The translations under genes were made by a program, and so were the position numbers. Of a stretch of DNA of 64,000 nt, positions 26,515-57,865 are shown one piece after another. The stretch lies in NCBI RefSeq assembly GCF_003112575.1, contig NZ_BEWC01000001.1:62001-126000 (forward strand), given 5' to 3'. Position 1 is the first letter of the stretch. Each line of letters opens with the position of its first letter. This stretch comes from Streptomyces ardesiacus. GTDB lineage: Bacteria; Actinomycetota; Actinomycetes; Streptomycetales; Streptomycetaceae. The notes beneath the pieces are model-generated. The model was not told the origin of the DNA. It was given only the letters and a program-made list of their open reading frames with translations, and did not search any database.

Positions 26515-26518
26515 CCGC

Positions 26519-28638: not shown

Positions 28639-31600
28639 GTGGTCTTGAGTACTTCTCGTAACTCGGCAGAAAACCTCCCTGTCTTCCCGGAAGACCGGGA
28701 GGTGGAGACTTCCTGCCCGGCGTCGCCCACCGAGCAGGGGATTCTCTTCCAATCCCGCCACGGAGAAGGAGCCGGCCTTTTTCACACACAGGTCCTTCTC
28801 GACGTCGCCCGGGACATCGATCCCGACCTCTTCCGCCGCTCCTGGGCGGCGGTGGCGGCCCGGCACGCGGCGCTGCGGACCTGCTTCCCCGACCCCACCG
28901 GCGAGGGGCCGTCGCGCACCGTGCTCAAGCGCGTGGAGGTACCCCTGGTCCACGAGGACTGGCGCGGACTCGACGAGGAGCAGGTGGCCGAACGGCGAAG
29001 GGCCCTGCTGCGCGAGGACCACGAACGGGGGTTCGCCCTGGACCGGGCGCCGTTGTGGCGGCTGCACGTGGCCCGCCTGGAGCAGGCGCGGTACCAGGTT
29101 CTGTGGAGCCTGCACTACGTGCTGACGGACGGGCGCGGCCAGGAGACGGTGCTGCGCGAGGTGGAGCGGACCTACGGTGCGCTGCTCGCGGGAACGCCCC
29201 TGGACCTCCCGGCGCCCACCCCGTTCGAGGCGTACGCCGACTGGCGCGGCGGGCAGGACAGCGACCGGGCCGAGGCCTTCTGGCGCGAGGAGTTGCGGGA
29301 GGCCGAGGCGGCCGATCCGCTGCCCGTCGAGTCCCCGGCCCCGGCCTCCGCCGGGGCCGGGGCCGGACCGGCCGGCGAGCCGGACGGTGCTCCGGCGACG
29401 GTCCGGTACGCACAGGCGGCCGTCGTCCTGGACGAGCGCGAGACCACCGCCCTGCGTGCCGCGGGCCGTGACCACGGCCTCACCCTCACCACCCTCGTCC
29501 AGGGCGCCTGGGCCTTCCTGCTCAGCCGCTACACCACCTCCGAGGACGTCGTCCTGGGCGTGACCACCCCCGGCCGCCCGGCCGAACTGCCCGGCGCGCA
29601 GGACCTGGTGGGGCTCCTCGTCAACACCCTCCCGCTGCGCGTCCGGATGCCGTCCGAGGCGCCCTGGGCGGAGTGGATGCGGGAGCTGCAGGAGACGTAC
29701 GCCCGCGTCCGGGAGCACGAGTACCACCCCCTGGTGCGGATCCAGCAGTGCGGCGGTATCGGCTCGGGCGAGTCGCTCTTCGAGACCGTCGTCCTGGTGG
29801 AGGACTGGGCGGACACCGGGGACGGGACGGACGCCGGGGACGGGACGGACGCGGAGGACGGGACGGGCGCCGAGGACGGCGCCGCCACCGAACCCGGCCC
29901 AGCCCTGCGGATGAACCGGGTCCATGAGGAGAGCCACGCCCCCTACCCGCTGAGCCTGGTCGCCACCCCCGGCCGGCGCCTCGCGCTCACCCTCCACTAC
30001 GACACCCGGCGCCTCGCGGCGGCGACCGCCGAGCGGGCCGCGGGCCACCTGCGCCGCGTCCTCACCGACCTCACCGCCCGGCCCCACGCCCGCACCGGGG
30101 AGCTGGCGCTGCTCACCCCCGCGGAGTTCGACCGGCTGGTCCACGAGTGGAACGACACCGACACCCCCTACTCGCGGGACCTGTGCATCCACGAGCTCTT
30201 CGAGCGGCAGGCGCGGCGCACGCCCGACGCCCTGGCCCTGCTCTTCCAGGACGAGCGGTGGACGTACCGGGAGGTCGACGAGCGGGCCAACCAGATCGCG
30301 CACCTCCTCACCCGCCTCGGGGTGGCCCGCGGCGACCACGTCGCGATCCTCCTGGAACGCCGCGCGGAGATGATCCCCGCCCTGCTGGGCATCCTCAAGG
30401 CCGGCGCCGTCTACGTCCCGCTGGACGTCAACGCCCCCGTCAAACGCTGGCACTGGATCGTCAACGCGCTGAAGACCACCTGCGTCCTCACCCAGCACTC
30501 CCTCGTGCCCCGCCTGCTGTCCGAGGACGGCGTGCCCGACCTCGCGCACCTCCTGTGCCTCGACCCCGGCGACGCCCCGGACCCGGACCTCCCGGCCGAC
30601 GGGCACCCCGCCCTGCACGGCGCCGAGGCGCTCGCGGACATGCCCCGCGACGGCCTTCCCCGCCGGGCCACCGCCGACGACCTGGCCTACGTCATCTTCA
30701 CCTCCGGCTCCACGGGCACGCCGAAGGGCGTCACGGTGGCCCACGCCCCGGCCGTGAACCTGATCGAATGGGTCAACACCACCTTCGGCGTCGGCCCCGA
30801 CGACCGGATCCTGTTCGTGACGGCGCTCACCTTCGACCTCTCCGTCTACGACGTCTTCGGCATCCTCGCCGCCGGCGGATCGATCCGGATCGCCACCGGT
30901 GAGGAGATCCAGGAACCGGCCGCCCTGCTGCGCCGCCTCGCCGACGAGCCCATCACCTTCTGGGACTCGGCCCCCGCGGCCCTGATGCAACTGGTCCCCC
31001 TGCTCCCCACCGACGGCGACGGCGCCCACCGGGTCGTCTCCCGTACCCTGCGCCTGATCTTCATGAGCGGGGACTGGATCCCGGTCCACTCGCCGGACCT
31101 GATGCGGACCGTGTTCCCCGCCGTGCGGGTCGTCGGCCTCGGCGGAGCCACCGAGGCGACCGTCTGGTCGAACTTCTTCCCCGTCGCGGACGTCGACCCC
31201 GAGTGGAAGAGCATCCCCTACGGCAGGCCCATCCAGAACGCCCGCTACTACGTCCTCGACGAGAGCCTGCGCCCCTGCCCGCTCGACGTGCCGGGCGACC
31301 TGTACATCGGCGGCCCCTGCCTCAGCTCCGGATACGCGAACGAGCCCGGCCTGACGGCGTCCAAGTACCTCCCGTCGCCGTTCGCCGGTTCCCCCGGAGA
31401 ACGCCTGTACAAGACGGGCGACATGGCGCGCTGGCGCCCGGACGGCAACCTGGAGTTCCTCGGACGCACCGACTCCCAGGTCAAGATCCGCGGCTACCGC
31501 ATCGAACTGGGCGAGATCGACAGCACCCTGAACGAACACCCCGTGGTCCGGGACGCGGCCACGATCGTCCGCGAGGACCGGTCCGGCGACCGGTCGCTGG

Positions 31601-34600
31601 TGAGCTACGTGGTGCTGGACCCGAGCCGCGCCCGCTCCCTCGTGCGGGAACTGGACAACGACGGCCACCGCGACGGCGACGATCCGCTCGCCGACAAGCG
31701 GGTCGAACGCTGGCGCGAGGTCTACGACTCCTTCGACGCCGACGCGGCGAAGGAGTCCGCGGACGGCAACGACTTCTCCGGCTGGAACAGCAGCTTCACC
31801 GGTCTGCCCCTCCCCGCGGAGGAGATGCGGGACTGGCAGGAGGACACGGTCCGGCTCATCCGCGCCCACCGGCCGCGCGCCGTCCTGGAGATCGGCTGCG
31901 GCACCGGCCTGCTGCTCTTCCCGCTCGCCGGGGAATGCCGGCGGTACTACGGCACGGACTTCTCCACCACCGCCCTCGCCTCCGTCCGCGGCCGCCTCGA
32001 CGACCGCCCGGACCTCAAGGACGCGGTCGTCCTGCACCGGTGCGAGGCCGACGCCGTCGGCGACCTCCCCCTGGAGCCGGTCGACACCGTCGTCGTCAAC
32101 TCCGTCGTCCAGTACTTCCCCGACGTGGACTACCTGGTCCGCGTCCTGGACCAGGCACTGTCGCGGGTCGGCGACGGCGGACGGATCATCGTCGGCGACG
32201 TACGGAGCCTCCCGCTGCTCGACGCCTTCCACGCGGCCGTCGAGGCGGACCGCGCCCCGGACGCCACCACCCGGGCGGAGCTGTGGCAGCGCGTCCAGCA
32301 GCGTGTGCGCCAGGAGGAGGAGCTGACGCTCGACCCGGCCTTCTTCCACGCCTGGGCGGCCCGCTCCGGCCGGATCCGCCGGGTGGAGGTACGGCCCAAG
32401 GGCGCACGCCACCTCAACGAGATGTCGATGTTCCGCTACCAGGTGGTCCTGCACGTCGCGCAGCCCCTCCCGGACGCCGCCACCGCGGCGCCCGACTGCC
32501 CCGAGCACGACTGGACCGCCGACCGCCTCGGCACCGCGGCCCTGCGGGAGCTGCTCGCCGCCGGCCCCGACCGGCTGCGGCTGCGCAACGTGCCCAACGC
32601 ACGCGTCGAGGAGGCCGTGCGCACCCTGCGCTGGCTGAAGAGCGGCGCCGGCCTGGAAACCGTCGGGGCCTGGCGCGCCCAGGACCGGCCCGCCGACGGC
32701 GTCGACCCGCAGGAGCTGCGCGAACTCGCCGAGCAGGCCGGCTACCTGGCCGCACCCGACTGGAGCCGGCACGGCGGCGACGGCGGCTACGACGTCCTGC
32801 TGACCCGCGTCGGCACGGAACCGGCCCCGGACGCCGCCCGGTTCGTCGTCCCGACGGCACCCGGCGAGGGTCCGGAGGAGCAGGAGGAGCACGACTGGTC
32901 GCGGTACGCCAACCAGCCCCTCAAGGCCGAGATCCAGTACCTCCTGGTACCGCGGCTGCACGCCCACCTCGCCGAGCGGCTCCCCGGCTACATGGTGCCC
33001 TCCGACCTGGTGCCGCTCGACTTCCTCCCCGTCACCTCCAGCGGCAAGCTGGACCGGCGCGCGCTGCTGCTCCCGCAGGCGTCCAGGACCGCGGGAGCGA
33101 CCGCGGCGCTGCCGGCCCGCACCACCACCGAGGCACTCCTCGTCTCGATGTGGGAGCAGATCCTCGACCGCTCACCCGTCGGCGTCCTCGACGACTTCTT
33201 CGAACTGGGCGGACACTCGCTGCTCGCCGTGCAGCTCGCGGCCCGCATCCGGCAGGTGTTCTCGCTGGAGGTGCCGGTCCGCCTCTTCTTCGACCTCCCG
33301 ACGATCGCCGAGGTCGCCCGCGAGATACGGCGGCGCCAGGACGAGCGGCAGCCGCAGCCGGCCCGCCCCCTCGTCCCCGTCCCCCGGGACGGCGAGCTGC
33401 CCGCCACCTTCGACCAGCAGCGGCTGTGGTTCATCGACCGGATGAGCCCCGGAACCACCTCCTACACCGTCAACTGGCTCGTCCCCCTGCCGGCGTCCCT
33501 CGGCGCCCCGGTGATCGGCGAGGCGCTCGGACACATGCTGCGCCGGCACGAACCCCTGCGCACGACCTTCCGCGAACGCGACGGCCGGGTCTGGCAGGTC
33601 GTCGGCGACGGGTGCGCCGTCGAGGTACCCACGCTGGACCTGTCCGGTCTCCCCGAGGACGAGAGCGAACAGCGCACCCGGGACGAGATCCGCCAGTGGT
33701 GGGACCAGCCGTTCGACCTGGTCGAGGGGCCCCTGCTGCGGGCGCTGCTCGTCACGTGGTCGCCGACGGAGCAGATCCTGGCGCTCAGCGCCCACCACCT
33801 GGTCTTCGACGGCTACTCGATCGGCGTCTTCGGCCAGGAGTTCCTGGAGATCTGCCGGGCCCTCGACGCCGGCGAACCGTGCCCGCTGCCCGACCTCGCC
33901 GTCCAGTACGCCGACTACGCGGTGTGGCAGCAGGGCCTGCTGGAGGAGGAGCGGCTCGGGCACCAGCTGGAGCACTGGCGCCGGCAGCTCGCCGGGGCGC
34001 CCGAACTCCTCACCCTGCCCACGGACTTCCCGCGACCGGAGGTGCAGAGCCTGCGCGGCGACTTCCTCAGGCGGCAGCTGACGCCGGAGGCGACCCGCCG
34101 GATCGCGGAACTGAGCCGCGACTACCAGGTCACCACCTACATCACCACGCTCAGCGCCTACGCGGTCTTCCTGGCGCGGCACAGCGGCCAGGACGACCTG
34201 GTCATCGGGGTGCCGATCGCCAACCGCAACCACGTCGAACTGGAATCCATGATCGGGTTCCTGGTCAACACGATCGCCCTCCGGGTGGACCTGCGCGACA
34301 ACCCGACCTTCGAGGACGTCCTGCTCCAGGTCCGCAGGCGGCTGTTCGACGCCCAGAGCCACCAGGAGGTCCCCTTCGAGCGGCTGGTCGACGCGCTCCG
34401 GCCGGCCCGGAGCCTGGGCCACAACCCGGTCTTCCAGGTGATGTTCGCCGACGAGAGCCTGCCCCTCCTCGACCACCCGTCGGCCCTGGTGCAGCCCAGG
34501 CCGTGGATGCACAGCCTGATCGCCGAGGGCATGAGCGTCGGCGTCTCCCGCTTCGACCTCACCCTCATGATCCAGTCGGCACCGGAGGGCATGCACTACG

Positions 34601-37600
34601 GATTCGAGTACTCCACCGACCTGTTCACCGCCGAGACGGTCGCGCGCATGGCCGACCGCTTCGAGGTGCTCGTCCAGGCCGCGCTGGCCGACCCCGGACA
34701 GCGCGTCGGGGACCTGCCGCTCGTCGACGCCGCCGAGCGCGACCGGATCGTGGAGCGGAGCCGCGGGCCCCGCAACCCGGCGGCGCTCGCGCCGGTGTCC
34801 CTCCCGGCGCGGTTCCGCGAACAGGCGCGTCGGACCCCGGACCGGACGGCGATCGTGGACGGCGACCGCCGGGCCACCTACCGCGACCTCGACCTGCGGT
34901 CGAACCGCCTCGCCGCACTGCTGCGGGACCGCGGCGTCCGGCGCGAGAGCCTCGTCGGGCTGTGCCTGTCGCGCTCCGTCGAGAGCGTCGTCGCCCTGCT
35001 GGCGGTCGTGAAGGCGGGCGCGGCGTACGTGCCGCTGGACCCCTCCTATCCGCGCGAGCGCCTGGGCCACATGGCCGAGGACGCCGGACTGCGGGTCGTC
35101 CTGACCGAGCGTTCGGCGGCCGGCGCGCTGCCGGAGACGGACGCGCGGGTGCTGGTCGTCGAGGACCTGTGGCCCGAGCTGGACCGGTGGCCCGACGGCG
35201 AATCCGGCCCGGACCTGACCGCGGACGACCTGGCCTACGTCATCTACACCTCCGGTTCCACGGGCCGGCCCAAGGGCGTGGCCGTGACCCACGCCGACGT
35301 GGTCGCCCTGGCGCTGGACAGCCGCTTCGCCCAGGGACACGAGCGCGTCCTCATGCACTCGCCGCAGGCCTTCGACGCCTCCACCCACGAGGTCTGGACG
35401 CCGCTGCTGTCCGGCGGCCGGACGGTGGTCGCGCCGCAGACCGCGCTGACCGCCGAGGCGCTGCGCGAGCTGGTCGCCCGGCACGAGGTCACGGCCGTGT
35501 TCCTCACGGCCGCGCTGTTCCACCTCTTCGCCGAGCAGGACCCGGGCTGCTTCGCGGGCCTGGCGGAGGTGTGGACCGGGGGCGAAGCGGTACGGACCGA
35601 GGCGGTGCGCAGGGTCCGCGAGGCGTGCCCGGGCCTGGTGGTCGTGGACGTCTACGGACCGACGGAGACGACGACCTTCGCCACCTGCCACCGCATCGAA
35701 CCGCAGGACCCCACGCCCACTGTGCTCCCCATCGGCCGGCCGCTCGACAACACCCAGGCCTACGTGCTGGACGGCCTGCTTCAGCCGGTGCCGGTGGGTG
35801 TGGCGGGGGAGTTGTATGTGGGTGGGGCGGGTTTGGCGCGTGGTTATCTGGGGCGGCCGGATGTGACGGCCGAGGCGTTTGTGGCGAATCCGTTCGGTGG
35901 TGCGGGGAGTCGTTTGTATCGGACGGGGGATCTGGCGCGTTTTCTGCCTGATGGGAATGTGGAGTTTTTGGGGCGGGTGGATGATCAGGTGAAGATCCGG
36001 GGGTTCCGGATCGAGTTGGGTGAGGTCGAGGAGGTGGTGGCGCGGCATTCGGGGGTGCGGGGTGTGGCGGTGGTGGTGCAGGAGGAGGGTGCGGTGCGGC
36101 GGTTGGTGGCGTTTGTGGTGGTGGCTGGTGGGGTGGGGGGTGAGGAGTTGCGGTCGTTCGTGGGGGAGCGGTTGCCGGCGTACATGGTGCCGGGGGTGTT
36201 TGTTGTGGTGGACGAGTTGCCTTTGGGCCCGAGTGGGAAGGTGGACCGGGCGGCGTTGTCGGGGTTGTTGGGTGAGGGTTTGGGGGCGGGTGAGGGTGGT
36301 TTTGTGGCGCCGCGGACGGAGGTGGAGGAGAAGCTTGCTCTGGTGTGGGGTGAGGTGTTGGGGACGGGTGTTCCGGTGGGGGTGCACGACAATTTCTTTG
36401 CTCTGGGTGGGGATTCGATTCTGAGTCTTCAGGTGATTTTCCGGGCGAAGCAGTTGGGTCTGTTTTTTTCGGTGAAGCAGTTGTTCGAGTTTCAGTCGGT
36501 TGCGGCGTTGGCGCCGGTGGTGGAGTTGCGTGGTGGGGCCGGGGTGGTGGCCGAGCAGGGTGTGGTGACGGGTCGGGTGGCGTTGACGCCGGTGCAGCGG
36601 TGGTTCTTCGCTCAGGATTTCGCTGTTCCGGGGCATGTGAACCAGTCGGTGCTGGTGGAGGCGGAGGCGGGGCTGTCGGCGGAGCAGTGGCGGGTGGTGG
36701 TGCGGCGGGTGCTGGAGCAGCACGACGGACTGCGCACCCGCTTCTTCCAGGAGGACGGTGCCTGGTGCGCCGAGCTGACCGGGATGCCCGAGGAGACGCC
36801 GTTGCGGGTCGAGGACCTGTCGGGGTGCCCGGAGGGTGAGCGGGAGGCGCGGTTGCTGGAGGTCGCCGGTGCCGTCCAGGCCGGCCTGGACCTCTCCCGG
36901 TCCCCGCTGCTGCGCGCCGTCCTGTTCACCGGCCTGGAGGACGGAGGGCGGAAACTCCTCCTCGTCGCGCACCACCTCGTGGTCGACGTCGTCTCGTGGC
37001 GGGTGATCCTGGAGGATCTGGAGACGCTGTGCGGTCAGGTCCGGCGGGGTGAGGACCTGGTGCTGCCGCAGAAGACGAGTTCGTGGCGGCAGTGGGCGGC
37101 CCGGCTGGCCGAGGAGGCCGGCAGCGAGACGACCGCGGCCGAACTGCCCTACTGGCAGCAGCAGTCGGCCCCGCCCGCACACCCCGTGCCCATGGACGGT
37201 CCGGGCGAGGACGACACCGTGGGTGGCGGCCGGGTGGTCGAGGTGGTGCTGGGTGAGGCGGAGACGCGGGCGTTGCTGCGGGACGTGCCGTCGGTGTTCG
37301 GGACGCGGGTCAACGACGCGTTGCTGACGGGTGTGGCGTCGGCGGTGGGTGCCTGGTGCGGGAGCGGCCGGGTGCGGGTGGACGTGGAGGGGCACGGGCG
37401 GGAGGACCTGTTCGAGGACACGGACGTGTCGCGGACGACGGGCTGGTTCACCACGATCTCGCCGTTGGACCTGCCGGTGCCCGCGGCGGACCGTCCGGCG
37501 GAGGGGCTCAAGGAGATCAAGGAACTCCTGCGGGCCCGGCCCAGACAGGGCATCGGCCACGGCCTCCTCGCGTACGGAGGTGCCGATTCCCCCCTGCACG

Positions 37601-39544
37601 GGGCCGAACCCGCGCAGATCAGCTTCAACTACCTGGGCCAGTTCGACGGGTCGTTCGCCGGCAGCTTCGCCGCGTCGTCCGGTACGGCGGGCCCGGACTG
37701 GGCGCCGGTGAACCGGCGGCCGTATCTGATCGACGTGGTCGGTCATGTCCGGGACGGGCGGCTGCGCATGCAGTGGACGTACAGTCCGTCGGCGCACCGG
37801 GAGGAGACGGTGCGGGAGGTGGCCGAGCGGACGCTGGGCGTGCTGTCGGCGCTGGCCGAGGAGGCACGGCGTCCGCAGGTGCAGGGGTACACGCCGTCCG
37901 ACTGGGAGTTGTCGGGTCTCGACCAGCGGCAGGTGGACGACCTGGTGGCCGCTCTGCGCGGGCATCCGGCGTGGCGGGACGCCACCACCGCCCGCCCCCT
38001 GGAGGACTGCCTGCCGCAGACCCCCGTCCAGCAGGGGCTCTGGTTCCAGAGCCAGTTCGCGCACGGTGAGGGCGTCTACCACGTCCAGCTCATCCTGAGC
38101 ATCGGTCAGCACCTGGACGTCGGGGTGTTCCGGGAGAGCTGGGCGCAGGTGATGCGCCGGCATCCGATCCTGCGGACGGGGTTCTGGACCACCGGGGACA
38201 ACCGGGCGCTGCAACTGGTGTGGGCGGATCTGCCGGTCCCGCTGGAGGTGGCCGACTGGCGTGACGGGAGCGCCGAGGAGCAGCGTGCGCGGCTGGAGGC
38301 GTATCTGGCCGGAGACCGGGCGCGGGGTTTCGGGCCCGAGGACGCTCCGCAGTGGCGGATGCTGCTGGCCCGTACCGGTGAGGAGAGGTACGAGCTGGTG
38401 TGGAGTGCCCACCACACGATCCTGGACGGCTGGAGCATCAGTCTCGTCCTGGGTGACGCGGTGCGGTGGTACGGGGCCCTGCTGGAGGGGCGTGTGCTGG
38501 ACAGGCCCGCGCCGCGTCCCTACCGGGACTACGTGGCCTGGCTCGGCGAGCAGGACCTCCGGCAGGCCGAGGACTACTGGCGCCGCACCCTCCAGGACGT
38601 CCAGCCGGCCGAACCGCTCAGCATCGAGCGGCACGCGGCCGGACGGTCCGAACCGCCCGGGACCGGTGGGCAGGCCGAGTACGACTTCCTCTTCGGCGTG
38701 GAGGAGACCCGGCGCCTGCAGGAACTCGCCCAGACCCGCCAACTGACCCTCAACACGGTCCTCCAGGGCTGCTGGGCACTGCTGGTCGGCCGCTACTCGG
38801 GCCGCGAGGACGTCGTCTTCGGCACCGTGGCCTCGGGTCGCCCGGCCGAGATCGAGGGCATCGAGCGGACCGTCGGCCTCTTCATCAACACACTGCCGCT
38901 GCGGGTGCGGATGCCCGCGCAGAGCACCGTGCTCGCCTGGCTGCGGGAGCTGCAGGAGCAGAACCTGCGCATGAGGCAGTACGAGTACAGCCCGCTCAAC
39001 AAGGTGCAGCAGTGGAGCGGGCTGCCCGCCGGCGCCCCCCTCTTCGAGACCCTGTTCGTCTTCGAGAACTACCCGGTGGACAAGGACGACGAGGCCGCCC
39101 TGCGCTACGACCTCACCCGCTCCGAGGAACGGATCAACTACCCGCTCGGGGTGGTGGCCACCCTGCCGCCCGGGCAGCAACGTCTGCGGATCGTCGTCCA
39201 GTACGACACCGCACGGTTCGACCCCGAGACGATCGAGCGCATGCTCGGCCACCTGGGCAGCGTCTGCTCCCAGCTCACGCGCGAGCCCGACATGCGACTG
39301 GGCGACGTCAGCGTCCTGACGGACGAGGAACGCCGCCACATCCTCCGACAGGGCAACGCCGTCCCCCTGCAACGGACGGACGAGACCGACCTCGACCTGT
39401 CCGCGCTGGCGGCGGGAACCGCCGGAACCGCCGAAGAACGCGAGCTTCTCGAACAACTCGTCGCAGAAGTTCAGGGCATGTCGCCGAGCGATCTCCAGGC
39501 CCAGATCCCGCACGCCGCCCCGGCTACCGAGACGAGTGACCACC

Positions 39545-39552
<8 letters not shown>
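28639..39552 (+). CDS. NRPS 1: C*-A(Cys)-NMT-PCP / C-A-PCP-E / C
   Basis: 3637 residues from GTG 28639 (TTG 28645 has better spacing to AGGGG). Module 1: a C domain with an HYVLTDG motif at 159-165, where the catalytic second His is Tyr; A1 (Asp at 733) with pocket residues DLYDFSLVWK, close to the Cys code; an N-methyltransferase inserted in the A domain (VLEIGCGTG at 1082, NVPNARV later); PCP serine at 1527. Module 2: C with HHLVFDG at 1719; A2 (Asp 2246) with DAHFWGVTFK, unclear, aliphatic-like; PCP GGDS serine at 2593; epimerase [10 protein letters not shown] at 2778. A final D-accepting C (HHTILDG at 3258) has no A domain and passes to NRPS 2. An acidic C-terminal helix may be a docking element. 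Expected start: N-methyl-Cys joined to a D-residue. Confidence 0.95.
29821..29874 (+). repeat. Three in-frame 18-bp repeats in the first C domain
   Basis: Units of GACGGGACGG(A/G)CGC(C/G)G(G/A)G encode [18 protein letters not shown] at residues 395-412. They form an acidic insert in a surface loop, directly after the [10 protein letters not shown] strand of the C domain that has lost its catalytic His. Confidence 0.8.
35791..36758 (+). repeat. Near-identical A8-PCP-E cassette, copy 1 (module 2)
   Basis: This 968-bp block is repeated at 40625-41592 at a constant offset of 4834 bp with only a couple of mismatches seen. It covers the end of the A domain, the PCP and the start of the E domain. 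Its codons end largely in G or T (gtg, ttg, ggt), unlike the C-ending codons around it. Near-identity resumes in patches further on (about 36830-37577, 37697-38040, 38107-38592). Confidence 0.9.
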
Positions 39553-49270
<9,718 letters not shown>

Positions 49271-49332
49271 GAAACGCCGGCGCGCACCGTGCACCGCGGT
49301 GCGTGCCCGCCAGGCCCAAGGAGACGAAGACC

Positions 49333-50631
49333 ATGTCCGCAGTCCAGCCGGCGGCCCCGGACCGGGAGACACCCGGGGACGAGGCGCCGTTCGCGGCCGA
49401 GACGTCCATGACCAGCCCCCGGATCGCCGCCCTCGCCGCGGCCGTCGACGCCGGGAACCACGCGGCCGTCGAGGAGTTCTGGAAGGAGGCCGCCGAGACC
49501 GGCACCCCCCTGATGGAGCCGACCGACGACGAGTCCCTGACCCTGGTCACCTTCCTGTGGCGGGACCCGGGCGACACCGAGAACGTGATCGTGCTCTTCT
49601 GCAGCGCGCCCAGCGGCGACCTGCGGGAGTTCCGCATGGAGCGGATGCCGGGCACCGACCTCTGGTACCGGTCCTACCTCATGCCCTCCCGGCTGCGGAC
49701 CACCTATCTGCTCTCGGTCAACGACCCGATGGAGCCCTTCGAGTCGTACGCGCAGGTGCTGCGCCGCCTGCCCGAGTACGAGCCCGACCCCCTCAACCCC
49801 CGCGACTACACGCTCACGGGCGACCGCGACCGGTTCCGGGTGTCGGTGCTGGAACTGCCCGCCGCGCCCCCGCAGCCGTGGAACATCCCGCGGCGCGGTG
49901 TGCCGAAGGGCCACAGCAGGATGCAGACCATGGACAGCGCCGTGCTCGGCACCCGCCACCACGTCAGCGTCCACACCCCGCCCGGCTACACCGCCGACGG
50001 CGACGAGTACCACGTCTTCCTGCTCTTCGACGGGTGGTCCTACTACAACTTCGCGGCCATCACGACCGTCATGGACAACCTCCTCTACGCCGGCCGCATC
50101 CCCCCGTACGTCCTGGTGATGCACACCAACGAGGACCAGGAGATCCGCGCCCGCGAACTGACCTGCCACGACCCGTTCAACGCGTACCTGAACCAGGAGC
50201 TGATGCCCTGGGTCCACGCCAATTACCACATCACCTCGGACCCCGCGAAAACCGTGGTCGGCGGCTCCTGCTTCGGCGCGCTGGCCGCGATGTACGCCGC
50301 CTACCGCACCCCCGAGCGGTTCGGCTGCGTCATCTCCCAGTCGGGGTCGTACTGGTGGCCCGGAAAGGACGTACCGGAGAAGGAGGAGGAATGGCTGACC
50401 CGGCGGTTCGAGGAATCGCCGAAACTCCCGATCCGATTCTCCATGGACATCGGAAGCCTTGAGCGCTCGATCGTCGACCACGACCCGATGACGAGCCACC
50501 GGAACATGGTGGCCGCCCTGGAAAAGAAGGGCTACGAGGTCGACTTCAGCGAATTCCTGGGAGGCCACGACATGGTCTGCTGGCGCGGCACCGTCGTCGA
50601 CCGGCTGCGCTCCTTCCACCCGGGCCGGTAG
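49333..50631 (+). CDS. Enterochelin esterase (Fes/IroE)-like alpha/beta hydrolase
   Basis: 432 residues; ATG 49333 follows AAGGAG. The N-terminal third (about 40-165) resembles the Fes N-terminal beta-sandwich (VTFLWRDPGDTENVIVL), and residues 190-432 form the esterase domain. The nucleophile is in GGSCFGALAAMYA near residue 315 and the catalytic His in GGHDMVCWRG near residue 418. Fes enzymes cut ester bonds in siderophores. Here, 62 bp after an NRPS that lacks a thioesterase, a role in releasing or cyclising the peptide through an ester is plausible; hydrolysis of the product or of mis-loaded carriers is the alternative. Confidence 0.87.
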   Translation: MSAVQPAAPDRETPGDEAPFAAETSMTSPRIAALAAAVDAGNHAAVEEFWKEAAETGTPLMEPTDDESLTLVTFLWRDPGDTENVIVLFCSAPSGDLREFRMERMPGTDLWYRSYLMPSRLRTTYLLSVNDPMEPFESYAQVLRRLPEYEPDPLNPRDYTLTGDRDRFRVSVLELPAAPPQPWNIPRRGVPKGHSRMQTMDSAVLGTRHHVSVHTPPGYTADGDEYHVFLLFDGWSYYNFAAITTVMDNLLYAGRIPPYVLVMHTNEDQEIRARELTCHDPFNAYLNQELMPWVHANYHITSDPAKTVVGGSCFGALAAMYAAYRTPERFGCVISQSGSYWWPGKDVPEKEEEWLTRRFEESPKLPIRFSMDIGSLERSIVDHDPMTSHRNMVAALEKKGYEVDFSEFLGGHDMVCWRGTVVDRLRSFHPGR

Positions 50632-50688
50632 CGCGCACCGAGCACACCGGCCGGAAAGCACCGAGAACGCACGCGAAAGGTGAACCAG

Positions 50689-51816
50689 ATGAGTGCAGCC
50701 ACGATCACCGTGCTGCCGGGCGACGGGGTCGGCCCCGAGGTGACGGCCCAGGCACTGGCGGTGCTGCGCGCCGTCGAGGAGACGTACGGGCACCGCTTCA
50801 CGGTCCACAAGCGACGGGTCGGCCTGGACGCCATCGCCGCCGAGGGCGTCGCGATCTCCGACAGCACCTTCGAGATCTGCGGCCAGAGCGACGCGATCCT
50901 CTTCGGCGCGATCGGCAGCCTGCCGCCCGGCGCGGACCGCGGCGTTGGCCCCCGGCCCGAGGAGGCCCTGTTCCGCCTGCGCAAGGAGTTCGGCTTCTTC
51001 GCCAACCTGCGCCCCGTACGGCCCTTCGAGGCCCTGTACGGCGCCTCCTCGCTCAAGCCCGAACACCTCAAGGGCGCCGACCTGCTCTTCGTGCGGGAAC
51101 TGTCGGCCGGGCTCTACTACGGGCGCCTGGAATCCGTGCCCGGCAAGCCGAGCGAGATCCGCCGCGCACCGCACGGCACCGAAGCCGTGGACACCCTCCT
51201 CTACACCGAGGAGGAGATCGAACGCGTCGTGCGCGCCGCCTTCGAGATCGCGCTGCTGCGGGAGCGGAAGGTCACCTCGGTCGACAAGGCCAACGTGCTC
51301 AGCTCCTCCGTCCTGTGGCGCGAGGTGGTGGAGCGGGTGGCGGCCGAGCACCCCACCGTCACGTACGAGCACATGCTGGTCGACGCCTGCGCCATGCGCC
51401 TGATCAGGACGCCGTCGGAGTTCGACGTCGTCGTCACCGAGAACCTGTTCGGCGACATCCTCACCGACGAGGCGTCGATGCTGACGGGATCCATCGGCAT
51501 GCTGCCGTCCGCCAGCCTCGGAACCCGGCGCACGGCCGGCGGCACCTTCGGGCTGTACGAGCCGATCCACGGCTCCGCCCCCGACATCGCCGGCCGGGAC
51601 CGGGCCAACCCGGTGGGCGCCGTCCTCTCCGGCGCGCTGCTGCTCCGGCACTCCCTCGGCCTCACCCGGGAGGCCGCCGCCGTCGAGGGGGCCGTCGAGG
51701 CGGTGATCGGCGAGGGCCTGCGGACGCCCGACCTCGCGGAGCCCGGCAGCACGGTCGTCGGCACCCGGGAGATGGGGCGCCGCATCACGGACCGGGTGCG
51801 CTCGGCCTCCGCCTGA
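50689..51816 (+). CDS. 3-isopropylmalate dehydrogenase-like oxidative decarboxylase (LeuB homologue)
   Basis: 375 residues from ATG 50689. Beta-decarboxylating dehydrogenase fold: PGDGVGPEV at the N terminus, RPEEALFRLRKEFGFFANLRP near 85-105, the SVDKANVL catalytic segment with Lys near 200, NLFGDILTDEASML near 250, and the GSAPDIAGRDRANP nucleotide loop near 300. The pocket helix has a Phe where IPMDH usually has the second Leu of GLL, hinting at a different side chain. It should oxidise a 3-alkylmalate to the 2-oxo acid with loss of CO2, using NAD. It lies in the NRPS operon with LeuA, LeuC and LeuD homologues. Confidence 0.9.
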   Translation: MSAATITVLPGDGVGPEVTAQALAVLRAVEETYGHRFTVHKRRVGLDAIAAEGVAISDSTFEICGQSDAILFGAIGSLPPGADRGVGPRPEEALFRLRKEFGFFANLRPVRPFEALYGASSLKPEHLKGADLLFVRELSAGLYYGRLESVPGKPSEIRRAPHGTEAVDTLLYTEEEIERVVRAAFEIALLRERKVTSVDKANVLSSSVLWREVVERVAAEHPTVTYEHMLVDACAMRLIRTPSEFDVVVTENLFGDILTDEASMLTGSIGMLPSASLGTRRTAGGTFGLYEPIHGSAPDIAGRDRANPVGAVLSGALLLRHSLGLTREAAAVEGAVEAVIGEGLRTPDLAEPGSTVVGTREMGRRITDRVRSASA

Positions 51817-51898
51817 CCCCGCCGCATCCCGGCCCCCCCCGCGGCCACCGCCGTACGCGTGCGGCACACGACGAACAGACGACTGGAGTCCCCCACGC

Positions 51899-53347
51899 AT
51901 GACCACGTCACACAGCGCCCCCCGGGCCGTCCCGGCCGGCCTCGGCGCACAACGCCTGGCGGTCCGGGAAGCCCGTCGCGACCTGGTCCGGCACCACCGC
52001 TCCGTCCGGGCCGACTCGGCGGAACCCCCCATCCGCGTCATGGCCCGGCTCATCACGGACCTCGAACGGGAGTGCGCACACCGGGGGTTCGCCCCGGCCG
52101 CCATCCGGCTGGAGATCGTCAACCGGACCATCGGCGACGTGAACGTGCGGCTGATCGACGAGTGCGACGGGGAGGAGGGCGGCCCCGGGGACTACCGCCT
52201 GCTCGCCGACGAACTCGGGATCGCCCTGCCCGGCGAGGAACTGCACGGCCGGCCGGCAACCGGGAAGGGCTACCAGTGGCTCCGGGACCGGATGGCGGAC
52301 GAGGAACGCGACCTCCTCGACGCCGGGTACGACCCGCGGATCTACGACATCCAGGGGGTCGGCAACCCGCTGCTGCGCGGCCGGCTCGCCGCCGACATGG
52401 CGCGGTGGGGCGTGAGCGCCACCGCCGAGCAGGTGGCGCTCGGCCTGGGAGCGGGGGACTGCATCGACAAGATCTTCCGCGGACTGGCCGCTGCCGCCCG
52501 GCGCCGGGACGAGCCGCCCGGGGCGCTCCTCTTCGCGGCGCCCGGCTTCAACATGCCCGAACTGCAGGCCGAGACCTACGGATACCGGCTGCACCGGGTG
52601 CACACCCGGGCCGAGGAGCGGTTCAAACTCACCGGCGAGCGACTGGCCCGGCACCTGCGGGACAACCCGGACGTCAGGGTCTTCTACCTGACCGTGACGA
52701 ACAACCCCACGTCCCTCGCGTACACGCCCGGCGAACTGACCGCCCTCATGGAGGCCGTACGGCATTCCGCAGACCGGGGCCACCCCGTCCACGTCCTGGC
52801 CGACCTCGCCTACATCGGCACCGGACGCCCCGCCGAGGACGAGGCCCGTATGCGGGCGCTGGCCTCGGTCCCCGGGGCGGCCGAGCGCCTGATCTACGTG
52901 AACAGCTTCTCCAAGACGTTCAGTCTGACCGGAGACCGGTTCGGCTGGGCCGTGTTCGCGGACGCGGAACTGTCGGCCGCCATGCGACCGAGCTGGATGA
53001 ACAGCGTGAGCTGCCTGCCCGGGGAATGGCAGCTGCGCTTCATGGCGTACCACACCCTGTTCGCCCGGCACCCCGAGCTGGTGGAGAAGATCCGCGGCCT
53101 CTACCGGCTGCGCCGTTCCCGTCTGCGCACACAACTGCGCCTGCTGGACGAGGAACACGACCTTTTCGAGACCATTCACACGGACGACGACGCGACCATT
53201 TACCTCTGGTGCCGCCTCAAGGCCGGCCAGGACTGTTTCTCGGTCCTGGAGAAGACCGGCATCGCCGGTATCCCGGGATCCACCTTCGGCTATTCCGACG
53301 ACTACATCCGCTTCTCGGTCGGCATTCACCCGGTCGTCATGGACTGA
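51899..53347 (+). CDS. PLP-dependent class I/II aminotransferase
   Basis: 482 residues, ATG 51899. The first 130 residues extend beyond typical class I enzymes. The PLP domain follows: GLGAGDCIDKIFRGLA near 180, APGFNMPELQAETYGYRL, TVTNNPTSLAYTP (Asn contact) near 265, DLAYIGTGR and the Schiff-base lysine in YVNSFSKTFSLTGDRFGW near 340. An arginine-rich C-terminal domain ends FRFSVGIHP-like. It most likely aminates the 2-oxo acid made by the neighbouring Leu-type enzymes, giving a non-standard amino acid for the peptide. That pairing is inferred from the operon. Confidence 0.87.
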   Translation: MTTSHSAPRAVPAGLGAQRLAVREARRDLVRHHRSVRADSAEPPIRVMARLITDLERECAHRGFAPAAIRLEIVNRTIGDVNVRLIDECDGEEGGPGDYRLLADELGIALPGEELHGRPATGKGYQWLRDRMADEERDLLDAGYDPRIYDIQGVGNPLLRGRLAADMARWGVSATAEQVALGLGAGDCIDKIFRGLAAAARRRDEPPGALLFAAPGFNMPELQAETYGYRLHRVHTRAEERFKLTGERLARHLRDNPDVRVFYLTVTNNPTSLAYTPGELTALMEAVRHSADRGHPVHVLADLAYIGTGRPAEDEARMRALASVPGAAERLIYVNSFSKTFSLTGDRFGWAVFADAELSAAMRPSWMNSVSCLPGEWQLRFMAYHTLFARHPELVEKIRGLYRLRRSRLRTQLRLLDEEHDLFETIHTDDDATIYLWCRLKAGQDCFSVLEKTGIAGIPGSTFGYSDDYIRFSVGIHPVVMD

Positions 53348-53408
53348 CCCCGCTCACCGCCTTTCGGCGCGTCGTCGACGGCAAGAGATCTTCCGAAACG
53401 GAGAGACC

Positions 53409-54800
53409 ATGCAGAAGGACGCACACGGACACACGGACAGCACCGCGGACGACATCGACTCCCTCGACGTCCCCGTCAACTTCAACTGGAACCGGGACCC
53501 GAGCCCGCTGACGCCGCTGCCGACGAGCATGCCCGGCGAGCCCCTCGCCTCCCAGGTCGCCGGGGCCCACGTCCTGTCGGAGTGCCTGCGCGACGGCCTC
53601 CAGGGCATATCGGGATACCCGCGGGTCGACGACATGATGCGGTACCTGCACCTGCTCCACGCCTTCGGCATCCGGCACGCGACGGTCGGGATCTACCCCG
53701 GCAACGCAGACCGGATCAACGCGCGGATGAAGCAGCTGCTGGCACGGATGCGGGACGAACTGCCCGGCATCGTGCCCTCCGTGCTCTCCATGTGCACCGA
53801 GGAGTCCCTCCGGTGGACCGTCGAGTGCAAGGAGATCCACCCCGCGCTGGAGTCCGTCGTCTTCATGGGCAGCGCGCCGTCGAGACGCCTCGTCCAGGGC
53901 TGGGGGCTGGACTTCGTCCTGGACCGGATGGAGACGTTCATCAAGAAGACCGTGGAGATGGGGATCCCCGTCATCGCGGGCACCGAGCACACCACCCAGA
54001 CCACGCCCGAGGACCTGCGGGCGATCACCCGCACCCAGGTCGAGAGCGGCGCCTACATCGTCGCCCTCGCCGACACCATCGGGGTCATCCGCCCGCTGGG
54101 CACCTACCGCATCATCCGCTTCGTCCGCGACGAACTCGACGCGCTGGGCGTGCCGGACATGCAGGTGGACTGGCACGGCCACCGCGACACCGGCAACGCC
54201 CTCGGCAACGCCATGGCCGCGGTGGCGGCCGGCGCCAACCGGATCCACGTGGTCGCGCGGGGCGTCGGCGAACGCTCGGGCAACGCCTCCCTGGAGGAGA
54301 TCGTCCTCAACTTCGCGGCGATCCAGGCGGAGGCCGGCCTGCCCGTCCCGTGGGACATGTCACGGCTGCTCGAACTGATCACCTGCTACCAGGAGATGGT
54401 GGGCGTGGAGCCCCCGGAGCACGGCGTGCTCGGCAAGCGCTACAGCCACACCTCGTCCGGCATCCACACCGACGCCATCCTCAAGGCCCACCACCTCGCC
54501 GACCGGGCCCGGGAGGCGAACGCGCCCGAACTCGAGGCGCGCCTGCGGGAGATGTCGCGCACCGTGTACTCCGCGGTGGACCCGGCCGCCATCGGCGGCA
54601 GCCCGTCCGTGGCCGTCAGCCCCTGGAGCGGCCAGAGCTCCGTGCGGCTGGCCTGCATGCTGAGCGGCCGCGACCCCCGCGACCTGTCCCCGGAGACCGT
54701 CCAGCAGCTCCTGACCCGCGCCAACGAACTGGGCCGCGAGCTGACCCCCCAGGAGCTGGAGGAGGGACTCACCAAGGCGCCGGCCGCCCACCCCGCCTGA
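53409..54800 (+). CDS. 2-isopropylmalate synthase-like Claisen enzyme (LeuA homologue)
   Basis: 463 residues from ATG 53409. DRE-TIM barrel at about 45-320: ECLRDGLQG (Arg and Asp of the metal/enolate site), DWHGHRDTGN (two metal histidines) and GERSGNASLEE (metal Asn). After the barrel, GKRYSHTSSGIHTDAILK is the communication subdomain. The protein then ends about 130 residues short of actinobacterial LeuA, so the leucine-feedback domain is missing. The expected reaction is condensation of acetyl-CoA with a 2-oxo acid to a 2-alkylmalate. The accepted oxo acid is unknown. Confidence 0.9.
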   Translation: MQKDAHGHTDSTADDIDSLDVPVNFNWNRDPSPLTPLPTSMPGEPLASQVAGAHVLSECLRDGLQGISGYPRVDDMMRYLHLLHAFGIRHATVGIYPGNADRINARMKQLLARMRDELPGIVPSVLSMCTEESLRWTVECKEIHPALESVVFMGSAPSRRLVQGWGLDFVLDRMETFIKKTVEMGIPVIAGTEHTTQTTPEDLRAITRTQVESGAYIVALADTIGVIRPLGTYRIIRFVRDELDALGVPDMQVDWHGHRDTGNALGNAMAAVAAGANRIHVVARGVGERSGNASLEEIVLNFAAIQAEAGLPVPWDMSRLLELITCYQEMVGVEPPEHGVLGKRYSHTSSGIHTDAILKAHHLADRAREANAPELEARLREMSRTVYSAVDPAAIGGSPSVAVSPWSGQSSVRLACMLSGRDPRDLSPETVQQLLTRANELGRELTPQELEEGLTKAPAAHPA

Positions 54801-54848
54801 ACCGGACCCCTCCCGCCACGCGACACCCCTCGAAGGAGCAACCGACCG

Positions 54849-56252
54849 ATGCCCCGCACGATGTTCGACAAGATCTGGGACGCGCACGTGGTGCGCGACG
54901 AACCCGGCGAGATACCGATGCTCTACATCGACCGGCACCTCACGCACGAGGCGACCTCGCCGCAGGCCTTCGCCGGGCTGACCGAACGCGGCCTGCCGGT
55001 GCACCGTCCCGAGACCGTGGTCGCGGTGATCGACCACAACGTCCCCACGACGCCGGGACGCCGCCTGATCGACGTCATCGACCAGCAGAGCGTCGTCTGC
55101 ATCGAGACGATGGAGGACAACGCCCGCGACTTCGGCGTCCGGCTCCTGGGCATGAACGACGACGACCAGGGCATCGTGCACGTCATCGGTCCCGAACTGG
55201 GCCTGTCGCTGCCCGGCATGACGGTCGTCTGCGGCGACTCCCACACCTCGACCCACGGCGCCCTCGGCATCTTCGCCATGGGCATCGGCACCAGCGAGGT
55301 GGAGCACGTGCTCGCCACGCAGTGCCTGCTCCAGCAGAAGCCCCGCACGATGAACATCCGCATCGACGGCACCCTGGCCCCGGGCGTGAGCGCCAAGGAC
55401 GTCGCGCTGGCGATGATCCGCAGGCTCGGCACCGACGCCGGCACCCACCACGTCATCGAGTTCACCGGCTCCGCCGTGCACGCGCTGTCCATCGAGGGCC
55501 GCATGACGCTGTGCAACATGGCCATCGAGGCGGGGGCCCGGGCGGGCATGGTCGCCCCCGACGACGTGACGATCGAGTACGTGCGCGGCCGGCGCCACGC
55601 GCCCTCCGGAGAACTCTTCGAGCGGGCCGCCGAGCAGTGGCGGCAACTGGCCGCCGACCCCGGTGCCCGCTACGACGCCGAGCACCACCTCGACGTGGAC
55701 GACCTGGTGCCGCAGGTCACCTGGGGCACCAACCCGGGGATGGTCGCCGACGTCACGGGCACCGTCCCGGACCCGGCGGCCGAGAGCGATCCCGTCCTGC
55801 GCGCCGAGCGGGAGAAGGCCCTGGAGTACATGGGCCTGGAGCCCGGCCGGCGGATCGACGAGATCCCGGTCGACACCGTGTTCATCGGGTCGTGCACCAA
55901 CTCCCGGCTGGAGGACCTGCGGCTGGCCGCCGAGTTCGTCGCCGGCCGGAAGGTCGCGCCGGGCGTGCGGGCCATCGTCGTGCCCGGCTCCATGGCCGTC
56001 CGCCGCGCCGCCGAGGCCGAGGGGATGGCGGACGTCTTCCGCGCGGCGGGCTTCGAGTGGCGCGAGCCCGGCTGCAGCATGTGCATCGCGATGAACGGGG
56101 ACCGCCTGTCCGCCGGCGAGCGCTGCGCCTCGACGAGCAACCGCAACTTCGAAGGACGTCAGGGCAAGGGCGGCCGCACCCACCTGGTCAGTCCGGCGAC
56201 CGCGGCCGCCACGGCCGTGGCCGGCCGGTTCGCCGACGTCCGCGACCTGTAG
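54849..56252 (+). CDS. 3-isopropylmalate dehydratase large subunit-like (LeuC homologue)
   Basis: 467 residues, the normal length of LeuC; ATG 54849 follows AAGGAG. Aconitase-type [4Fe-4S] ligands are present: Cys in [14 protein letters not shown] near 345 and the pair in [13 protein letters not shown] near 405-408. The [13 protein letters not shown] substrate segment is near 130 and [12 protein letters not shown] near 425. With the small subunit that follows, it should isomerise 2-alkylmalate to 3-alkylmalate by way of the alkene. No residue is missing, so activity is expected. Confidence 0.92.
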
Positions 56253-56264
56253 AGGAAGGACCCC

Positions 56265-56888
56265 ATGGAGAAGTTCATCACGCACGACGGCATCGCGGTG
56301 CCGCTGATGCGCTCCAACGTGAACACCGACGACATCGTCCCCGCCCGGTTCCTCAAGTCGATCAGCCGTTCAGGCTTCGGCCGGCACCTGTTCGGCAACT
56401 GGCGCTACCTGGAGGACGGGACCACTCCCGACCCGGACTTCCCGCTGAACGCGCCCCGGTACCAGGGCGCCTCCGTCCTCGTCGCCGGCGAGAACTTCGG
56501 CTGCGGATCCTCCCGCGAGCACGCGCCCTGGTCCCTGCGGGAGTTCGGCTTCCGGTGCGTGGTCGCGCCCGGCTTCGCGGACATCTTCCACAACAACTGC
56601 TTCAACAGCAGCATCCTCCCGGTCAGTCTGGAGACGGCCGAGGTCGAGGCGATCGCGGAGGGCCTGGCGGACGGCGCGTCGCCGACCCTGCACATCGACC
56701 TGCCGGCCCAGACGGTGACCACCGCCGACGGGCGGACCTACCGGTTCAGGATCGACCCCTTCAAGAAGAACTCGCTGATGGAGGGGCTCGACAACATCGG
56801 CTGGACGCTCTCCCACCGGGACCAGGTCCATGCCTACGAGGAGCGCCGCAGGCAGGAGGCGCCCTGGCTCTTCCCCCGGTCCGCCTGA
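56265..56888 (+). CDS. 3-isopropylmalate dehydratase small subunit-like (LeuD homologue)
   Basis: 207 residues, the usual size of LeuD, starting 12 bp after the LeuC stop with AGGAAGGA before it. The swivel-domain motif ENFGCGSSREHAPW lies near residues 77-90, NTDDIVPARFLK near 22-33, and ISRSGFG / VVAPGFADIFHNN are conserved. It forms the heterodimer with the preceding subunit. Confidence 0.92.
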   Translation: MEKFITHDGIAVPLMRSNVNTDDIVPARFLKSISRSGFGRHLFGNWRYLEDGTTPDPDFPLNAPRYQGASVLVAGENFGCGSSREHAPWSLREFGFRCVVAPGFADIFHNNCFNSSILPVSLETAEVEAIAEGLADGASPTLHIDLPAQTVTTADGRTYRFRIDPFKKNSLMEGLDNIGWTLSHRDQVHAYEERRRQEAPWLFPRSA

Positions 56889-56936
56889 CCCGGCCGCACA
56901 CCCCGACCCGAACAGCACAGAGCCTGGAGCCCGGAA

Positions 56937-57137
56937 ATGGAAGCACAGCAGATGAAGGTCCTCGTCAACGACGAGGAGCAGTACTCCCTGTGGCCGGCCT
57001 ATCTCGCCGTCCCCGAGGGATGGCGGGAGACGGGAACGGCCGGCTCGAAAGAGGAGTGCCTCGAGTACGTCAGGGAGGTCTGGGTCGACATGCGCCCCAA
57101 GAGCCTGCGCCTGCAGATGGAGCAGTCGGCCGGCTGA
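56937..57137 (+). CDS. MbtH-like protein
   Basis: 66 residues; ATG 56937 has GGAG 8 bp upstream, and a second in-frame ATG is at 56952. The family signature is complete: NDEEQYSLWP, PEGW, then CLEYVREVWVDMRPKSL. MbtH proteins bind the A domains of NRPSs and help their folding and activity. As the only MbtH gene in view, it is the likely partner of the five A domains here. Confidence 0.95.
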   Translation: MEAQQMKVLVNDEEQYSLWPAYLAVPEGWRETGTAGSKEECLEYVREVWVDMRPKSLRLQMEQSAG

Positions 57138-57186
57138 CGGCGCGGCCCGAGACGAAACGTTCGCGACACCGACCAAGGAGCCACTC

Positions 57187-57528
57187 ATGGACGAACTCCT
57201 CCGACGCCTCTCGGCCGAGGGGCAGAAGACGGCGGCCGGCGGACCCTCCCCCTCCGTGGAGGACCTCCGGCGGCGCGTCGCCGAGAAGGGGTACGTGTTC
57301 ATCAAGTTCACCGACACGGCCGGCGGCACGGACCTCGGCGTACGCGTCGACGCGGACGCCTGCGACCTCAGCGGGGCCGACTTCGCGCGGGGCATCGGCA
57401 GCGTGCACATCGAGGGCACGCTGACGCTGAACCTGGTGAAGGTGCGCTGTGTCACCGACATCGAACTGTCGTCGCTCACCGGTACCGGGCACCTGGTGCC
57501 GGTGGAGGAGGCCGTCGCCGCGCGTTAG
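57187..57528 (+). CDS. Small protein of unknown function, last gene of the NRPS operon
   Basis: 113 residues. ATG 57187 follows AAGGAG with good spacing, 49 bp after the MbtH gene. The N-terminal 35 residues are helical and charged (MDELLRRLSAEGQK). The rest looks beta-rich: YVFIKFTDTAGGTDLGVRV, then SVHIEGTLTLNLVKVRCVTDIEL. There is no signal peptide or membrane segment. I do not recognise the family. The fold suggests a small beta-sandwich or ligand-binding domain; a catalytic role cannot be shown. A strong terminator lies 59 bp after the stop. Confidence 0.85.
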   Translation: MDELLRRLSAEGQKTAAGGPSPSVEDLRRRVAEKGYVFIKFTDTAGGTDLGVRVDADACDLSGADFARGIGSVHIEGTLTLNLVKVRCVTDIELSSLTGTGHLVPVEEAVAAR

Positions 57529-57865
57529 CCCGCGGCCGGGGCGGCGTCCCGTCGGCCCCCGCCCCACCCCCGAGTCCTCTCCCCGAGGAAAGCGGCGGTA
57601 CGGATCCCCTCCCGTGCCGCCGCTTTCCGCGTCGTGGGCGGCCCGGCTCTCCCCGACCGCGTGGCACACCTTCTGGCCGAGATCGTGCGGGCGGCGCCGC
57701 GTCCGGGCAGCGTGACGGCTGCGTGTCGCTCGGTGGTGACAGTATCGTCGATCTACTGCAACCCTCGAGGTGGCGCGAATTCGTACCCCGCCGGGCCATA
57801 ATCGCTGACGTTGTGCCACGGCGGCTCGATGGCGGGAGCCGGTCGACGGATGGACGGGGGCTGGG
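57529..57865. other. Gap between NRPS operon and LuxR gene
   Basis: 337 bp without a gene. It holds the operon terminator (57587-57628) and, between about 57700 and 57860, the promoter of the LuxR gene. The latter part is less GC-rich (around tgacagtatcgtcgatctactgc), as expected for promoter DNA. No clear operator was found. Confidence 0.55.
57587..57628 (+). terminator. Strong terminator of the NRPS operon
   Basis: 17-bp stem, GGAAAGCGGCGG paired with CCGCCGCTTTCC plus four more pairs and a T-G wobble, with a 7-base loop. It lies 59 bp after the last operon stop codon. Confidence 0.85.

Follow-up and report, generated by a model that had tools for sequence, protein, structure and literature searches.

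Leucine-pathway-like enzymes encoded together with nonribosomal peptide synthetases (NRPSs) have been linked to the supply of lengthened amino acids. In the mycoplanecin cluster, a LeuA-type synthase, a LeuD and an aminotransferase accompany the NRPS genes and lead to lengthened aliphatic amino acids, with MypK and MypL making homoleucine (PMC10817943), and in the Hph system (HphA, HphB and HphCD), which provides homophenylalanine and homotyrosine, a LeuABCD-like set is likewise tied to an NRPS product (PMC12961565). The operon analyzed here shares this arrangement and occupies positions 28639–57528 of a 64,000-nucleotide stretch of Streptomyces ardesiacus (contig NZ_BEWC01000001.1, positions 62,001 to 126,000), referred to throughout as the window. 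Its NRPS pair has been catalogued before: tables published in 2018 list nrps-3 of S. diastaticus subsp. ardesiacus as C/A(cys)/MT/T-C/A(val)/T/E-C + A/T/E-C/A/T-C/A(ser)/T (C, condensation; A, adenylation; MT, methyltransferase; T, carrier; E, epimerization) and give its product as 'mCys-Val-x-x-Ser', an orphan with no product named, together with nrps-iii of S. coelicoflavus (PMC5932044). The catalogued pair agrees in domain order with the pair in the window and is nearly equal in size, its proteins having 3,616 and 3,241 aa and those of the window 3,637 and 3,244 aa; the tables consulted list NRPS genes only (PMC5932044). The statement of the initial annotation that no known product matches holds within the literature searched, although the NRPS pair itself was already on record as an orphan. 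In the same literature, 'isopropylmalate synthase', 'nonribosomal peptide synthetase' and 'homologation' were not found together.

On balance, the operon is best read as encoding a five-module NRPS without a thioesterase, joined to a second Leu-type set, and its product is likely a pentapeptide with a chain-lengthened amino acid, which this set would supply, brought in by A3 or A4. With the NRPS pair already in print, the new parts are the hydrolase encoded behind it and, above all, a family of small proteins apparently related to CBF-beta (core binding factor beta), here termed CBF-beta-like (CBFbL). The gene order first described, two NRPS genes followed by LeuB, an aminotransferase, a LeuA-like synthase, LeuC, LeuD, MbtH and a small gene, is borne out, as is the five-module layout; the earlier gene list had omitted the hydrolase (49333–50631) and, upstream, a subtilase, an ABC exporter and an M23 peptidase (23417–27826).

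The NRPS1 and NRPS2 genes overlap by 17 bases and together contain five AMP-binding and five PP-binding stretches, corresponding to five A and five carrier domains, with the MT domain located inside A1. Seven condensation-family domains are found in the pair, comprising five C and two E domains by position and likeness; E2 is assigned by its position and its likeness to E3, and E is also listed for this pair in PMC5932044. The two E domains (36571–37884 and 41405–42727) are 91% identical and C3 and C4 are 74% identical, which points to a recent duplication, or to gene conversion, between modules. At the start of the assembly line, C1 carries HYxxxDG rather than HHxxxDG in all four orthologues compared (window, S. 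coelicoflavus, Streptomyces sp. F63 and G775, a genome of another family; aa 150–170) and is nearest to C3 and C4 (38%), both of which follow E domains. C1 may be inactive in condensation, and because the second His of its motif is missing, the chain would probably start at module 1.

The A-domain signatures of the window are DLYDFSLVWK (A1), DAHFWGVTFK (A2), DIWNSGGIAK (A3), DFWNVGVIFK (A4) and DVWHMSLVDK (A5), compared here with reference codes. The A1 code is Cys-like apart from Asp at position 278 and, with the MT domain within A1, fits the proposed N-methyl-Cys start; the A5 signature is Ser-like, as expected for the proposed Ser end. A2 reads DAYWWGGTFK in F63 and G775, presumably a Val-like code, and both genomes keep the Leu set; since A2 is thus Val-like in two relatives that retain the set, A3 or A4 is the likelier acceptor of the lengthened residue. 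The shape of A4 is conserved in relatives (DFWNVGVVFK and DFWSVGVVFK), and A3 reads DIWSSGGIAK in F63 and is not covered in G775.

NRPS2 stops after T5, about 60 residues past the last carrier motif, and the domain scan detects no thioesterase in the terminal module; the window agrees in this with its three relatives S. coelicoflavus, F63 and G775. Because the cluster lacks a thioesterase, the hydrolase that follows NRPS2 is a likely trans-acting release enzyme for the T5-bound peptide. It scores above the cut-off of the PRK10439 enterochelin esterase model (238.2 bits against 222), carries both Fes Pfam domains, PF11806 and PF00756, and aligns over residues 59–424 of 432 with Fes (2b20), with GGHDxxCW conserved; the catalytic Ser of GxSxG, however, is absent, and Cys313 falls on the Ser of GQSFGG. 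Among the window hydrolase and the best 120 of its 594 relatives, this position is Cys in 61 sequences (the window and the 60 best-scoring relatives) and Ser in 60. Moreover, when co-location was compared for 84 LeuA-like and 118 hydrolase proteins, drawn from the best 120 of each, 17 LeuA-like/hydrolase pairs were placed on contigs of equal size above 5 kb, which serves as a proxy for linkage and not as proof, and every one was of the Cys type with none of the Ser type. A Cys-type relative (P0298, 52%) is also found in Listeria welshimeri on a 1.3 Mb contig. In ObiF and SulM, a Cys nucleophile releases the NRPS product as a strained ring, a β-lactone or β-lactam (PMC6668435, PMC11298585). In the present case the peptide could conceivably be cyclized through its terminal Ser.

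The match to an enterochelin-esterase model weighs against a release role, in that the hydrolase could instead act on a finished ester. The product would then be a siderophore-like ester that releases its metal when opened by the hydrolase, much as enterobactin is opened by Fes, and the Ser terminal module, which is also found in enterobactin synthesis, would suit this, as would the position of CBFbL relatives on two cyanobacterial plasmids beside TonB receptors and AraC regulators. Against it stand the replacement of the nucleophilic Ser by Cys, likewise in the 17 relatives linked by proxy to LeuA-like proteins, and the scan of cluster and flanking genes, which contained no catechol, hydroxamate or iron-uptake gene. 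A siderophore is therefore considered unlikely, and release of the peptide in trans by the hydrolase is retained as the preferred reading.

The Leu-type set itself is complete, with LeuA-type, LeuC/D-type and LeuB-type genes and an aminotransferase all present beside the NRPS genes, and it is kept with the operon in four genomes (window, S. coelicoflavus, F63 and G775). LeuB, LeuC and LeuD exceed their NCBIfam cut-offs and share 40%, 57% and 45% identity, respectively, with the host copies, which are encoded separately (LeuB at C2:1103344 and LeuC/LeuD at C2:1132454) along with a host LeuA at C7:293801 (880 bits). The cluster LeuA-like synthase, by comparison, matches several LeuA models but stays under the cut-off of each (TIGR00973, 82.9 against 598.7; PRK00915.1-2, 104.4 against 517), and its best NCBIfam score, to the homocitrate synthase model TIGR02660, is 117.7 bits against a cut-off of 462.9, so that by model it is not a homocitrate synthase either. 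Its nearest host relative is the citramalate synthase C2:1106124 (637.1 bits, cut-off 450), at 27–31% identity. Alignment with solved relatives indicates that the Arg-Asp, Glu and His-x-His motifs, which we take to be catalytic, are retained.

The substrate pocket differs from that of isopropylmalate synthase (IPMS). Residues V150, G191, A219 and A221 of the LeuA-like synthase align to H105, S147, N175 and P177 of Neisseria meningitidis IPMS (3RMJ), three of the four positions being placed by residue counts relative to the aligned Glu and Thr. On this partly counted placement, the synthase has lost all four residues (His, Ser, Asn and Pro) of the pocket for 2-oxoisovalerate. Methylthioalkylmalate synthase (MAM; 6E1J) has V182, G225, A253 and P255 at the same pocket positions. 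The 3RMJ residues are presumably the same four positions as H167, S216, N250 and P252 in published IPMS numbering. These are the positions reported as changed in MAM (PMC8490860), an enzyme that takes a methionine-derived oxo acid. Additionally, Ile189 of the LeuA-like synthase lies, by counting, at the position of the homocitrate synthase Arg that contacts the distal carboxylate of the substrate side chain (PMC12961565). Since the IPMS pocket residues are replaced in a MAM-like manner and Ile189 occupies the Arg position, the substrate is likely a neutral oxo acid larger than 2-oxoisovalerate. The proposal that the Leu set makes a lengthened amino acid is accordingly strengthened by a full second set and a synthase unlike LeuA, with the acceptor narrowed from three A domains to A3 or A4.

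The synthase belongs to a rare subfamily: at E ≤1e-60 it occurs in one genome out of 392 from the genus and in two out of 394 from the class, the window's own genome being included both times, and a search of plasmids at E 1e-50 returned no relatives. Relatives at 44–46% identity (P0085, P0090, P0099 and P0108) are Patescibacteria by name, a group of small-genome bacteria. The aminotransferase is extended at its N-terminus by about 150 residues, a part that lacks a Pfam match but has many positions invariant across four orthologues; the predicted structure of the enzyme has a mean pLDDT (predicted local distance difference test) of 63.2, based on four sequences only, and is too weak for a fold search.

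A simpler role, in which the set merely provides the NRPS with more of the ordinary leucine (or of 2-oxoisocaproate), is improbable. LeuB, LeuC and LeuD do pass the ordinary leucine-pathway models, but the LeuA-like synthase meets none of the LeuA cut-offs and has lost the IPMS pocket residues, the host owns its separate LeuA, LeuB and LeuC/D, and no A-domain code in the cluster resembles a Leu code known to us. Least probable is that the Leu-type enzymes give, in place of an amino acid, a homocitrate-type product or an alkylmalate/diacid-type end cap as in belactosin and cystargolide, which the homocitrate synthase model as best score (though far under its cut-off) and an N-terminal C1 able to accept an acyl cap would favor, but which is made less likely by LeuB and the aminotransferase within the set, by Ile189 at the Arg position, by the lost His of C1 and by the genes scanned, among which no separate cap ligase gene turned up.

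A lengthened amino acid at A3 or A4 thus remains the favored reading, and certain points weigh against it. The A3 and A4 codes match no code that we know, and at A221 the synthase departs from IPMS and MAM alike. Codes can also mislead for homo-amino acids, given that a homoleucine A domain was predicted as an ornithine domain (PMC10817943).

Starting from the observed gene and domain content, the following route is proposed. A neutral 2-oxo acid exceeding 2-oxoisovalerate in size would be condensed with acetyl-CoA by the LeuA-like synthase, LeuCD would isomerize the adduct, LeuB would oxidize and decarboxylate it, and the aminotransferase would convert the lengthened oxo acid to the amino acid. 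Chain growth would begin at module 1, with C1 lacking its second motif His, and the predicted residue order is N-methyl-Cys (A1, MT), D-aliphatic (A2, E), D-X (A3, E), X (A4) and Ser (A5). The hydrolase would take the peptide from T5 in trans and then hydrolyze or cyclize it, while MbtH and CBFbL would act as non-catalytic partners of the NRPS.

The last gene of the operon, initially described as an unknown protein after MbtH, does follow MbtH and encodes a probable bacterial relative of CBF-beta, as judged by sequence and predicted fold. The window copy reaches 24.7 bits with PF02312, whose curated cut-off is 25, and 27 of 30 relatives match this model at E ≤1e-3; four of five plasmid copies pass (31.5–37.7 bits; the fifth scores 19.7), as does one of the four copies scanned among 11 further separate ones. 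The predicted structure adopts the CBF-beta fold. A sequence profile of the family retrieves nothing from solved structures at E 1e-3, and at E ≤10 all 10 matches are CBF-beta with a best E of 1.3, so that homology is not proven by sequence alone in that way. NCBIfam gives no match for the window copy, and two of four relatives tried yield matches far below cut-off only.

The surroundings of the family were compared at 23 places. The window, S. coelicoflavus and F63 provide one each, four plasmid records provide five, and the remaining 15 come from 13 genomes out of 250 in the family to which G775 belongs. Each of the 23, spread over three phyla, has NRPS domains or MbtH in its surroundings, and an MbtH gene or domain is near CBFbL in 18 of them within stretches of 3.3 to 40 kb (8/8 outside the G775 family, 10/15 inside); for the extra genomes the MbtH model was built from four sequences and A and C domains were sought with the window's own, so that a miss there counts for little. 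The distance between the CBFbL and MbtH matches is 52 to 649 bases in the first eight places and G775. Two MbtH–CBFbL fusions occur in two genera (L059 1498–2064 on the minus strand and L062 1240–1788 on the plus strand; 189 and 183 codons before the stop); their MbtH part is recognized by Pfam and their CBFbL part by the family profile only (E 5.5e-30 and 1.5e-11), PF02312 matching neither. In one further genome (G1232), a short CBFbL copy of 86 aa is flanked by NRPS genes on both sides and shares four bases with the end of the first of them. No LeuA-like, LeuC, aminotransferase, hydrolase or subtilase gene is present in the stretches fetched for 13 further places in the G775 family, and CBFbL is therefore tied to the NRPS rather than to the Leu set.

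By genome counts, CBFbL occurs in the same 2 of 394 genomes of the class as the LeuA-like synthase, and of 356 genomes searched in the phylum the window's own is the one that carries it; the host has two MbtH genes and one CBFbL gene, and copies from Chloroflexota are known by name only. On a plasmid of Candidatus Bandiella numerosa, a Rickettsiales symbiont (L048, L049), CBFbL lies beside MbtH, and the plasmid also carries sbnA, sbnB and an NRPS gene of 7 kb. CBF-beta raises DNA binding by RUNX without contacting DNA (PMC1395345), and A domains have a small partner in MbtH (PMC6668435). Because of this double analogy, together with its NRPS surroundings, CBFbL is probably a non-catalytic NRPS partner in the manner of MbtH. 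For the family as a whole, it appears reasonably probable that bacterial CBF-beta relatives work beside MbtH as such partners, sometimes fused to it, and that animal CBF-beta has bacterial relatives, although at 5 of the 23 places no MbtH is seen in the stretch viewed, which tells against this reading; an A or C domain is present there. In the literature searched, 'core binding factor beta' was not found together with 'nonribosomal peptide', and the family is undescribed as judged from such searches alone.

Features of the operon and its upstream flank (positions in the window)
Feature	Position	Strand	Remark
Subtilase (PF00082)	23417–24748	+	Pfam; kept in S. coelicoflavus, F63 and G775; cluster member
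ABC transporter ATPase, probable export	24819–25796	+	Kept in F63 (82%) and G775 (75%)
ABC-2 type membrane protein, probable export	25777–26514	+	Kept in F63 (90%) and G775 (82%)
M23 peptidase, HxxxD and HxH motifs	26630–27826	-	
NRPS1, C1-A1[MT]-T1-C2-A2-T2-E2-C3	28639–39552	+	
NRPS2, A3-T3-E3-C4-A4-T4-C5-A5-T5	39536–49270	+	
Enterochelin-esterase-like hydrolase, 432 aa, Cys313 at nucleophile position	49333–50631	+	Predicted trans-acting release enzyme
LeuB-like dehydrogenase	50680–51816	+	TIGR00169, 417.6 bits (cut-off 353.2)
Pyridoxal phosphate (PLP)-dependent class I/II aminotransferase	51899–53347	+	Above Pfam cut-off
LeuA-like (HMGL-like) synthase, rare subfamily	53409–54800	+	HMGL-like Pfam cut-off passed
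LeuC	54849–56252	+	TIGR00170, 709.4 bits (cut-off 560.25)
LeuD	56265–56888	+	TIGR00171, 248.1 bits (cut-off 116.25)
MbtH protein	56937–57137	+	PF03621, 76.1 bits (cut-off 27)
CBF-beta-like protein (CBFbL), 113 aa, predicted NRPS accessory	57187–57528	+	Last cluster gene in F63

The genes at 49333–57528 all lie on the plus strand with intergenic gaps of 12 to 82 bases, and a single transcript running from the NRPS genes to CBFbL, as first proposed, is plausible on this arrangement; a consensus scan of 49000–58200 gave no promoter-like or terminator-like site (shuffled sequences gave means of 0.2 and 2.4), a result of little weight at 73% GC. In F63 (L002), the segment from the hydrolase through the 113-aa gene is conserved at 73–88% identity. 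The subtilase, the ABC pair and the M23 peptidase accompany the cluster in all three relatives (S. coelicoflavus, F63 and G775). In G775 the subtilase directly follows the 113-aa gene, and the two NRPS genes are split between two contigs.

To the right of the operon, a LuxR-type regulator and a HipA-like kinase (57866–59537) are kept in S. coelicoflavus. Neither of these nor the malate synthase beside them has a match in the F63 stretch, and a LuxR relative is located upstream in F63 instead. The subtilase orthologues (window; L029 12295–13494; L024 16605–17804) have intact Asp, His and Ser motifs, while the AGN position reads AGA, AGA and GGA. AGN is presumably the oxyanion-hole motif of subtilases (Asn region), and with this motif altered the cluster subtilase may be a poor or altered protease.

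An orphan cluster with a full Leu-type set is a good place to look for a peptide bearing a new lengthened residue, and the LeuA-like subfamily offers a fresh source of homologation enzymes. If its predicted role is true, the Fes-type enzyme with a Cys nucleophile would represent a new trans route for NRPS product release. CBFbL, if correctly placed, would be a second small NRPS helper next to MbtH, would provide a leukaemia-related animal protein with a bacterial counterpart whose function can be tested, and would place CBF-beta relatives in bacterial peptide-antibiotic and siderophore factories.

Compared with animal CBF-beta, CBFbL is bacterial and encoded with NRPS and MbtH genes, and no RUNX partner is known in bacteria. 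Relative to Fes (2b20, 3mga), the hydrolase shares the two-domain composition and the GGHDxxCW motif and differs in having Cys313 for the nucleophilic Ser; the ObiF and SulM thioesterase domains, in contrast, act in cis, whereas this Fes-type enzyme is predicted to act in trans. Within the homologation enzymes, the selection residues described for HphA are Ala73, Asp157, Ala159, Met186 and Ser242, and at the three positions that could be mapped the window synthase has Ile189, Gly191 and Ala219. Finally, mycoplanecin biosynthesis borrows LeuB and LeuC from the host and uses a LeuD-aminotransferase fusion, whereas here the LeuA-like synthase, LeuB, LeuC, LeuD and the aminotransferase are all encoded as separate genes within the operon.

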